From contig NZ_CP015101.1 of the NCBI RefSeq assembly GCF_002214465.1, positions 1,371,013 through 1,435,012 on the forward strand: DNA of 64,000 nucleotides, read 5' to 3'. Below, one piece after another: positions 14,681 to 62,896 of the stretch; the first letter of the stretch is position 1; each line of letters starts with the position of its first letter. The DNA is from Thermococcus barossii. Lineage in GTDB: Archaea > Methanobacteriota_B > Thermococci > Thermococcales > Thermococcaceae. Position numbers and translations under genes: made by a program. Under the pieces are notes generated by a model. That model had not been told where the DNA came from. It saw nothing but the letters and a program-made list of their open reading frames with translations, and searched no databases.

Positions 14681-15577
14681 TCAGAGACTGAAGGGAAGTC
14701 CCACGTCCTCTCCCCTCTCCCTTTTGTGAAGCTCCCTCCTGTAGGCTTCTAGTGGCCTGTCCTCGACCCTCAAGTAGGCGGCAAAGGTCTTGGGCCTCTC
14801 CTCCAGCTCGTCGAAGAAGCGCGGGTAGTTTTTGTCCCTCACTATGTGGTGGTCGAGGATTATCTCCGCCCCAGTTTCGCGGATTATCTCGTTGAGGTTT
14901 TTAATGCCCGTCTCCCAGCTCCCCTCAGCGCGCTTACCGAGGTATGTTGGCGGGCCGCCGGTTATGAGCAGGTCCGGGACCTTCTCGATTATCCACTCCA
15001 CCGCTTTTCTGTTGAGGAGCTGAATATCGCTCGCGTGAATGAACCTCGTTCCGTCATCTATGAGCGTCATCACAACGAAGCCGAGCCTTGAGCCCTCGCT
15101 CCCGTGGGGAACCGCCGGTGAGAACTCAAGCCTAACCCCACCAAGGTCAAATTTCCTCCCGTCCGCGAACTCTATCTTCTCTGCTATCGGCTCGGCGTTT
15201 TTGAGGAAGGCCCAGGCGCGCTTTCTCTGGCTGAAGTTGATGTTTTCTTTAGGGTGCTTGATGAAGAGGAGCTTTCCGGAGTAGATTTCTTTAGCATACT
15301 CCTCGCTCGAGCTCTCGTAGAGCCCCTCGAAGAAGGGGGTGTGATGGTCGTAGTGGTAGTGGGAAATCGTGACCACGTCGGCCCTTCTTGCGTAGCCCTG
15401 GAGCTTCCTCCTCATCGTGTGGAGTGCTTCTATTTCGATCTTCGCCGGCGGCAGGCCATAGCGCTTCGGCCCAAGGGCTACACCGGGGTCGATAAGAACT
15501 TTTATTCCCCCGGCTTCCACGAACGTTGCCAGGCTCCTCACGCCGAGGCTTTCGGAGGCGAGTGGAACGATTCTCAT
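14681..15577 (-). CDS. UPF0282 family metallo-beta-lactamase-fold hydrolase
   Basis: 298 residues of the metallo-beta-lactamase fold. The metal motif is SHYHYDHHTPF, with further ligands in VPHGSEG, FIHASDIQLL and ILDHHIVRD. It matches the archaeal UPF0282 family, whose substrate is not established; a nuclease or phosphodiesterase-like activity is possible. The ATG at 15577 is preceded by GGGGGGAG; an upstream ATG at 15589 overlaps that site. Its promoter shares the gap 15578-15635 with the sRNA on the other strand; CCTTAATAAGG near 15608 can serve as TATA in both directions. Confidence 0.85.
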   Translation of the reverse strand: MRIVPLASESLGVRSLATFVEAGGIKVLIDPGVALGPKRYGLPPAKIEIEALHTMRRKLQGYARRADVVTISHYHYDHHTPFFEGLYESSSEEYAKEIYSGKLLFIKHPKENINFSQRKRAWAFLKNAEPIAEKIEFADGRKFDLGGVRLEFSPAVPHGSEGSRLGFVVMTLIDDGTRFIHASDIQLLNRKAVEWIIEKVPDLLITGGPPTYLGKRAEGSWETGIKNLNEIIRETGAEIILDHHIVRDKNYPRFFDELEERPKTFAAYLRVEDRPLEAYRRELHKRERGEDVGLPFSL

Positions 15578-15635
15578 GGCTCCCCCCATGAACTTTCGGA
15601 CTAAACCTTAATAAGCCATACCCGTTAGTGAAGGT

Positions 15636-15700
15636 TGACCGATGATGAGTGTCATCCCTCCCGAGGAGACGATGAGGACATTATCCCCACCTGAGGTGGT
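15636..15700 (+). ncRNA. C/D box sRNA guiding 2'-O-methylation of 23S rRNA
   Basis: Box C ATGATGA at 15642-15648, a 12-base guide, D' CCGA at 15661-15664, C' ACGATGA at 15669-15675, a 15-base guide and box D CTGA at 15691-15694, with ACC/GGT able to pair at the ends. The D' guide (15650-15659, TGTCATCCCT) equals plus-strand 41818-41827 and the D guide (15681-15689, TTATCCCCA) equals 41797-41805; both lie in the minus-strand 23S gene, so both pair with 23S RNA. Predicted methylated bases pair with 15656 and 15686, that is G opposite 41824 and 41802. A TATA-like CCTTAATAAG sits about 28 bases upstream. Box D overlaps the ribosome binding site of the next gene. Confidence 0.85.
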
Positions 15701-15703
15701 CTC

Positions 15704-16168
15704 ATGTTTGGATTTTTCAGACGAAAGAAAAAGGAAAAATACGGGCCGCTCGTCTACCTGAGTGAGCCGACGATACTCTACCATACCCACACCGAGAGGG
15801 TTATCCTCGAGCTCCTCGAGGAGAAGCTCGGCTCCAATAACTTCGTGGTTCCCTCCGACTACGGTCTCAGGACAACCGACCACATGATTCCAGATGCCGA
15901 GATATTCGTGGCCATAGCGATAGTCGGGAAGTTCACCTCCCTCGTCGTCAGGGAGATTGAGATGGCCAAAAAGCACGGAAAGAAAATCTACACCCTCGAC
16001 GTGGCCAGAAAGGGTGATGAGATACTTTACCTCTTCGAGGAGGGAATCCCCAAGAGGATAGAGTGGCTAACGCCGGAGGAAACTCAGGAACTCTACGCGG
16101 CCTTCCGCGGCGAGGACTTCTCGGGATTCATGAAGTTCTTCTTCGGCGACAGAAAAAGACAGTGGTGA
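15704..16168 (+). CDS. Hypothetical protein, Rossmann-like
   Basis: 154 residues that I do not recognise. A basic N-terminus (FRRKKKEK) is followed by alternating strands and helices: PLVYLSEPTILY, ERVILELLEEKLG, NNFVVPSDYG, AEIFVAIAIVG and KKIYTLDVAR. This resembles a nucleotide- or nucleoside-transferase-like Rossmann fold, but no catalytic motif is evident. The ATG has GAGGTGG at 15694-15699, which overlaps box D of the sRNA just upstream, so the sRNA lies in this gene's 5' leader. It is convergent with the Nfn large subunit gene. Confidence 0.65.
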   Translation: MFGFFRRKKKEKYGPLVYLSEPTILYHTHTERVILELLEEKLGSNNFVVPSDYGLRTTDHMIPDAEIFVAIAIVGKFTSLVVREIEMAKKHGKKIYTLDVARKGDEILYLFEEGIPKRIEWLTPEETQELYAAFRGEDFSGFMKFFFGDRKRQW

Positions 16169-41308: not shown

Positions 41309-44346
<3,038 letters not shown>

Positions 44347-46080: not shown

Positions 46081-46461
46081 GAGCAAGGAGTACGGCCGGT
46101 GGGACTTCCCTCAAGGGGAAGTACCAAATATCCGTCCGGGGTTTAGTCGGGATGTCGGGCCTGCCTTACCCCCGAGGGGTCCGCCTTTCGGCGTTTCCTC
46201 GGGAGCGCACCTTTTTGTGACCCGGGCTGGAGGGCGGGGTTCATGAGTGGGTGCTTTGCACCCTGTCCCCCCGACGCCGCCGTCTTGGCGCCCGGGTTTG
46301 TCGCGCCCTGTTCGGGCGCTCCACCCAATAGGGATGAACCCCCACAGTGAAAAATTTTTGCAAAACCTCTCTCCGGCAATATTTTTGAAAAAGAAACTGT
46401 CAAAAAGCTCCGATAAAATGCACAATTTTAGACATAAAAACGGCAAAAGATTTTTGCACGA
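46081..46461 (-). promoter_or_regulatory. rRNA operon leader and promoter region
   Basis: 381 bases without a protein gene. 46130-46165 is the 5' arm of the 16S processing stem. 46166-46330 is GC-rich leader with hairpin potential (CCCCGAGGGG, CGCCTTTCGGCG). 46340-46440 is AT-rich and on the minus strand offers TATA-like CAAAAATATTGCC and GCAAAAATTTTTCAC; one of these should be the operon promoter, but I cannot choose from sequence alone. Confidence 0.6.
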
Positions 46462-62821: not shown

Positions 62822-62837
62822 GGGGGTGGCCACCCCC
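62822..62837 (+). repeat. Perfect 16-base GC palindrome before the sRNA
   Basis: GGGGGTGGCCACCCCC, directly before box C of the sRNA. It may be the base of the sRNA precursor, a promoter-proximal hairpin or a protein site. Confidence 0.55.
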
Positions 62838-62896
62838 CGTGATGAGCACTCTCGAACCTGACGGCGGGATGATGACCGGATTCCTGGCTGATTCTC
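62833..62896 (+). ncRNA. C/D box sRNA guiding 23S methylation
   Basis: Box C GTGATGA at 62839-62845, a 12-base guide, D' CTGA at 62858-62861, C' ATGATGA at 62869-62875, a 12-base guide and box D CTGA at 62888-62891. Spacing and boxes are those of a model Thermococcales sRNA. The D guide shares ten bases (CGGATTCCTG, 62877-62886) with 41934-41943, so it pairs with 23S RNA, with the predicted methylated G opposite 41940. I found no target for the D' guide (GCACTCTCGAAC) in the rRNAs or tRNAs here. A TATA-like AGCTTTTAAGAC at about 62790 may be shared with rimI. Confidence 0.85.

Follow-up and report, generated by a model that had tools for sequence, protein, structure and literature searches.

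A C/D box guide RNA gene as a probable attachment site for integrative elements in Thermococcales

The C/D box double-guide RNA sR55 is probably produced from the 5′ leader of a protein-coding gene, and the first ~15–20 bp of sR55 very probably serve as the attachment site of integrative elements. The site is empty in the window, the whole 64,000-nt stretch of Thermococcus barossii DNA analyzed here. tRNA and tmRNA genes are the classic targets of integration. A 2021 review of archaeal tyrosine recombinases names tRNA genes as integration sites, together with intergenic sites and a small number of protein genes, and does not mention sRNA or snoRNA (PMC8371274). Our search of the openly accessible full-text literature found no published report of a guide-RNA gene as an integration site, and within the literature searched this use of such a gene appears to be new.

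The sR55 guide RNA and its 23S rRNA targets

A covariance-model match at window positions 15638–15696 (+ strand) identifies the RNA as sR55 (Rfam RF01307), scoring 63.3 bits over the full model length where the curated cut-off is 35 bits. The RNA was found in 85 of 94 Thermococcales genomes, whereas 14 control genomes all lack it. Boxes C, D′, C′ and D follow one another in order, with a guide directly 5′ of D′ and of D, and a preliminary description of this DNA had placed the boxes correctly; the D′ box reads CCGA:

15638–15640, +, 5′ strand of the sR55 terminal stem, ACC
15641–15648, +, box C, GATGATGA
15650–15659, +, D′ guide, TGTCATCCCT, forming 10 bp with 23S positions 41827–41818; its +5 base faces G41824
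15661–15664, +, D′ box CCGA, an imperfect CTGA
15670–15675, +, C′ box CGATGA
15681–15689, +, D guide, TTATCCCCA, forming 9 bp with 23S positions 41805–41797; its +5 base faces G41802
15691–15694, +, box D CTGA
41314–44343, −, 23S rRNA gene
41818–41827, −, 23S target of the D′ guide, AGGGATGACA here and TGGGATGACA in other clades
41797–41805, −, 23S target of the D guide, TGGGGATAA

The box order, both guides and the terminal stem agree with RF01307, the score lies far over the cut-off, and there is no essential difference from the family, the C′/D′ loop being shorter here than in Pyrococcus. sR55 itself is already catalogued in Rfam, and the finding of a C/D sRNA at this position is thus true and largely known; a literature search on the name sR55 returned no match. 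The window holds two other Rfam matches, the C/D RNA sR5 at 62836–62892 (+) and the H/ACA RNA Pab19 at 46216–46319 (−), which precedes the 16S gene.

The same description had read the RNA as carrying two guides for neighboring 23S sites, and this reading is borne out by the Rfam match and by the two pairings themselves. The 10-base and 9-base matches are real, each is the best 23S site of its guide, and 0 of 1,500 shuffles of both guides gave runs of at least 10 and at least 9 bp within 100 nt, in agreement with the earlier judgment that the pair was unlikely to arise by chance. The predicted target residues G41824 and G41802 are spaced 22 nt apart, and we take the second to correspond approximately to E. 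coli position 2446 on the basis of the GGGGAUAAC motif; a length difference complicates the E. coli numbering of the first. Paired neighboring targets are the usual pattern of archaeal double guides (PMC7994747).

We compared guide–target pairing in the 20 genomes with both sR55 and 23S sequences. The top-ranked rRNA site of the D′ guide is the same one in all 20, with 10–11 bp in 19 and 9 bp in G077, and position 2 of this guide tracks the rRNA in 19 of 20 genomes, with T where the rRNA has A and A where it has T; G077 (g4), the exception to this covariation, has rRNA of the A form. Pairing by the D guide extends over 9 bp outside Pyrococcus; in Pyrococcus and in G012 it shrinks to 6–7 bp, and this site is outranked there by others in the rRNA. 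The D′ target is therefore strongly supported, and support for the D target is good in Thermococcus but weak in Pyrococcus. Conservation of boxes and guides across relatives, proposed earlier as a check, accordingly holds for the D′ guide through its covariation with rRNA and for the D guide outside Pyrococcus, and is weak for the D guide within Pyrococcus. From the anatomy of sR55, its conservation and the D′ covariation, we infer that sR55 directs 2′-O-methylation at both predicted 23S residues, adjoining the peptidyl-transferase center, and that its probable source is the 5′ leader of the deoxyribosyltransferase-like gene that follows it, on a shared transcript with one promoter for both. 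In G076 and G077 (g4; L135), a 201-nt stretch of 23S is identical to that of the window's genus and breaks the D′ guide match; this stretch looks like the product of rRNA gene transfer or conversion.

An empty site in the window and occupied sites in relatives

The DNA 5′ of sR55 differs sharply among close relatives, as noticed during a comparison of upstream promoter conservation, and integration at sR55 explains these differences. The interval between sR55 and a divergent MBL-fold gene spans 50–60 bp in G000, G071 and G030 and 12–47 kb in other Thermococcus genomes. In the window the two lie ~50 bp apart, and since the window thus holds an empty site, a role in integration is not visible from the window alone:

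14681–15589, −, divergent MBL-fold gene (PRK04286 family), the left neighbor that marks the empty site
15601–15615, +, native BRE/TATA-like promoter CTAAACCTTAATAAG of sR55 and the following gene, which stays on the attL side after integration
15639–15657, +, attB core, empty here: CCGATGATGAGTGTC at 15639–15653, extending to ...ATCC at 15657

On the MBL side of several long intervals, promoter CTAAACCTTAATAAG leads into CCGATGATGAGTGTC(ATCC), after which foreign DNA begins, and on the opposite side stands a complete sR55 with foreign DNA 5′ of it. The same or nearly the same CTAAACCTTAATAAG precedes attL in G042, G036, G054, G057 and G067. Direct measurement gave identical att cores of 26 nt in G021, 22 nt in G076, 18 nt in G043, 17 nt in G005, 15 nt in G036 and 13 nt in G015, and the outer att pair of G042 shares 11 nt, with more identity beyond a single mismatch on the left. 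The distance from core to core ranges from 12.3 to 46.6 kb, the longest comprising two elements in tandem (G042), and the measured elements span about 12–45 kb. These intervals thus combine direct-repeat att cores at both ends with an empty site in relatives, as in a site-specific integrative element.

In a genome-wide scan, most of the 94 genomes have a single copy of the 15-nt core CCGATGANGAGTGTC, the one at sR55, and a reversed-pattern control gave 0 matches. Extra copies occur in 13 genomes. For 12 of them, an additional core is located at an element with an integrase gene, and the remaining genome, G056, contains sR55 twice in full. An integrase gene adjoins a second, truncated sR55 core in 14 genomes, nine of them from a blind flank test and five found before it, and several such copies keep the native promoter. 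The blind test covered the flanks of eleven further integrase genes and revealed an sR55 core upstream of nine, reaching Pyrococcus (G005), g4 (G076, G081) and g5 (G089), with the promoter seen at empty sister loci preceding several of them. attL was not found at G062, where the contig starts.

We rejected the reading of every long MBL–sR55 interval as an element. Intervals of 1.2–1.4 kb often hold a shared native-looking gene or element-end remnants, and these intervals were left out of the element count, as were G018 and G020. In the latter two genomes (L158, L159, L167, L168), a 24–34 kb interval contains a chromosomal-looking cluster of transporter and sugar-metabolism-like genes with no integrase, perhaps captured cargo or the result of rearrangement. 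Other upstream types, each distinct, occur at L013, L026, L031, L056, L074, L039 and L042; some of these belong to the G036 and G015 elements, and types with no recognized integrase may be other or decayed elements.

The integrase, its elements and a second sRNA target

The integrase is encoded by an intact ORF of ~450 aa, located ~230–270 nt inside attL in most elements and at the sR55 end in G043, with homologs in 15 of 94 genomes across four genera. Foldseek comparison of the integrase model returned archaeal XerA, Cre and Tn1549 Int, with probabilities of 0.97–1.00 over the first 14 hits at E-values of ~3e-3 and low global TM-scores. GAR.SE, K, RK.xD, LLGR and HY are conserved in most members, and the model and these columns together display the catalytic-domain fold and R-K-R-(H/R)-Y residues of a tyrosine recombinase. 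Against Pfam Phage_integrase, the best member scored 26.3 bits, below the cut-off of 27.1, and most members gave no match. Searches of plasmid, phage and IMG/VR collections found no integrase relative, and we rejected a known plasmid or virus as the identity of the element on this ground. The integrase ORF is intact inside attL, and the enzyme is therefore not of the suicidal SSV type, in which attP lies within the integrase gene and integration splits it.

A second C/D-like sRNA gene shows the same pattern. In G049 the integrase sits behind GGGCGATGAAGAGATTCAT|TATTGAC, the start of a gene we call sRNA-B (GCGATGAAGAGATTCATCCCTCCTGA...), which is found in about half of the genomes, often just 5′ of another MBL-fold gene (loci L081, L089, L205–L216, L237 and L238). 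None of the sRNA-B loci scanned reached the cut-off of an Rfam family. In G068, a 4.4-kb remnant lies between two sRNA-B cores, with a truncated integrase relative at attL. Repeats at the element ends resemble the left half of the element's own target, AACCGATGAC for sR55 and GGCGATGAAT for sRNA-B, and the GGCGATGAAT copies of the G068 sRNA-B element likewise match their own target. Element ends were also considered as a structured RNA or a second C/D RNA, a reading rejected after RNAalifold found no consensus pairs across 25 ends; the AACCGATGAC repeats are better read as putative DNA binding sites, each resembling the core in its left half. We consider it likely that C/D sRNA genes constitute a class of attachment site in hyperthermophilic archaea, with a divergent tyrosine-recombinase family that takes box C and the start of the D′ guide as its core, specialization on at least two sRNA genes, promoter takeover, and mobile defense islands coupled to an rRNA-modification gene.

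Variation upstream of sR55 could in principle stem from ordinary rearrangement or from a DDE transposon with target duplication, with no integrase that takes the sRNA gene as its attachment site, and several intervals indeed have no integrase and carry only end-like remnants. We judge this origin to be highly improbable, because sR55-derived cores lie on both sides and are exact over 13–26 nt in six of seven measured pairs, the native promoter is restricted to the attL side, and a tyrosine recombinase occupies a near-constant position inside attL in most cases. The tandem insertion in G042 and the repetition of the pattern at a second C/D sRNA argue further against it, and the target duplications of DDE transposons are usually shorter and not bound to one gene.

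Site-specific integration by the tyrosine recombinase best explains these features. From the attL and attR junctions, the fold and adjacency of the integrase and the empty sister sites, we infer that this integrase family uses as its core the first ~15–20 bp of sR55, comprising the stem, box C and the start of the D′ guide, and would recombine DNA bearing CCGATGATGAGTGTCATCC. The core contains a GATGA-TGAGTG-TCATC inverted repeat that appears to be a dyad of the type used by tyrosine recombinases. After recombination at the core, the integrase would lie next to attL, where the native promoter and a truncated piece of sR55 stay behind, and at attR a complete sR55 would be rebuilt with bases brought by the element, whose end also supplies a new promoter-like sequence, much as tRNA-targeting integrases rebuild tRNA genes. 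The short core and the tractable host genus make sR55 a potential landing site for genetic tools.

Tyrosine recombinases of tRNA genes (SSV1, pTN3, pT26-2 and PYG1; PMC8371274) likewise use a conserved non-coding RNA gene as attB, rebuild the target from element bases while leaving a fragment at the other end, and lie beside one att site. In contrast to these systems, the target here is a C/D box sRNA gene, its 5′ part is replaced together with the putative promoter of the target and the downstream gene, and the integrase remains intact inside attL and is barely recognized by Pfam.

Element cargo includes type I restriction-modification, AbiEi/AbiEii, a Prim-Pol protein and a helicase/PLD/methylase cluster (L169–L171, L160, L172), and by this predicted gene content the elements are mobile defense islands. 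The sR55 att cores give exact ends for these islands of defense genes in Thermococcales. At its sR55-side end, the element carries a conserved BRE/TATA-like sequence AAAAnnTTnTTAA ~120 nt 5′ of sR55, a putative promoter that would replace the native promoter of sR55 and of the next gene. This arrangement points to mobile elements swapping the promoter that serves a guide RNA for rRNA methylation and the mRNA linked to it.

Overlap of box D with the ribosome binding site of the downstream gene

The 3′ end of sR55 runs into the translation signals of the following gene:

15693–15698, +, ribosome binding site GAGGTG of the gene starting at 15704; GA is common to box D, and GGT forms the 3′ side of the terminal stem of the k-turn
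15704–16168, +, gene for a 154-aa protein with a predicted nucleoside 2′-deoxyribosyltransferase-like fold, ATG at 15704

GAGGTG is complementary to the 16S 3′ end ...ATCACCTCCT. That box D and the ribosome binding site share bases had been noted before, and the overlap proves to be true and kept in 78 of 82 sRNA-bearing loci of six genera. The start codon follows the first base of box D by 13–15 nt in 78 of the 82, and CTGAGGTG (or CCGAGGTG) is found in 81. Box C varies across loci as GATGA(T/A/G)GA, and all four loci with box D CCGA have box C GATGAGGA, a compensating change that converts the U-U/G-U pair to G-C and preserves the box C–box D pairing of the k-turn.

The 154-aa protein, which occurs in 84 of the 94 Thermococcales genomes, matched no Pfam or NCBIfam family. 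Its structural model (pLDDT 82) is most similar in Foldseek to nucleoside 2′-deoxyribosyltransferases, with probabilities of 0.92–1.00 over the first 19 hits and a best E-value of 5e-3, and with this predicted fold we rejected an RNA-modification enzyme as the product of the gene. Distant homologs occur in other orders of the same class, and the readable upstream stretches of seven of them contain no obvious C/D element.

Four genomes uncouple the two genes. A flavodoxin-like gene separates sR55 from its usual partner in G075, G079 and G084 (g4; L044, L071, L073), and the two are on separate contigs in G001. All four genomes keep sR55, and the partner gene there is served by a ribosome binding site of its own; in the g4 trio it retains (C)TGAGGTGA where no complete sRNA stands, which looks like the trace of a decayed sRNA copy. 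With four genomes of two lineages uncoupled, linkage of sR55 to the gene is therefore usual and not essential, and control of the gene through sR55 is not obligatory.

We lean towards a passive overlap, in which CTGAGGTG doubles as box D plus stem and as ribosome binding site, and bases and promoter are shared without regulation. CTGA followed by a stem starting with GG already makes a ribosome binding site, archaeal C/D sRNA genes commonly overlap ORF ends (~7% at the 5′ side; PMC7994747), 11 snoRNAs of T. kodakarensis are located in 5′ UTRs (PMC4247193), and the uncoupled lineages survive. Retention of the overlap in nearly all species of six genera, even where upstream DNA has been replaced, nonetheless exceeds casual expectation. 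This retention and the fixed spacing to the start codon would suit a working switch, a reading we hold only tentatively, in which L7Ae bound to the k-turn, or sRNA 3′ processing inside GAGGTG, would hide or destroy the ribosome binding site, such that each transcript would become either guide RNP or mRNA and the downstream enzyme would be tied to C/D RNP supply.

Base changes in the terminal stem bear on the switch from both sides. All ten linked loci in which the 5′ stem base changed to G kept the 3′ U within GAGGUG and did not change it to C, and the unlinked locus L072 changed the 3′ stem base to C, restoring a G-C pair; however, two of three unlinked loci with the 5′ G likewise kept U. GGT is required by the k-turn stem as well, and its invariance therefore does not prove regulation. 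Precedents for a switch come from mRNAs with 5′-UTR k-turns that are repressed by L7Ae (PMC5539422) and from a C/D sRNA that overlaps a 5′ end and lowers reporter output, as cited from Tripp 2017 in PMC7994747. Against it, in G001 and the G075/G079/G084 clade the gene leader retains its own ribosome binding site without the sRNA, and the RNA fold of the leader is ordinary (z = −1.1). Control of the 15704 gene by L7Ae/Nop5 or by processing, as the preliminary description suggested, is thus a possible and plausible hypothesis and a fair lead, and the conserved overlap of box D and ribosome binding site offers an easy test case for translation control by a C/D RNP.

Cis-regulation by some 5′-UTR snoRNAs of T. 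kodakarensis has already been proposed by the authors of that study (PMC4247193). L7Ae autoregulation similarly places a k-turn near the ribosome binding site of an archaeal leader (PMC5539422), whereas here the k-turn is part of a guide RNA and control is putative. The P. abyssi RNA sRkB (PMC3124441) is, like sR55, an RNA of the L7Ae-binding type (K-turn) at an ORF start in Thermococcales, and differs from sR55 in that it is not a C/D guide.
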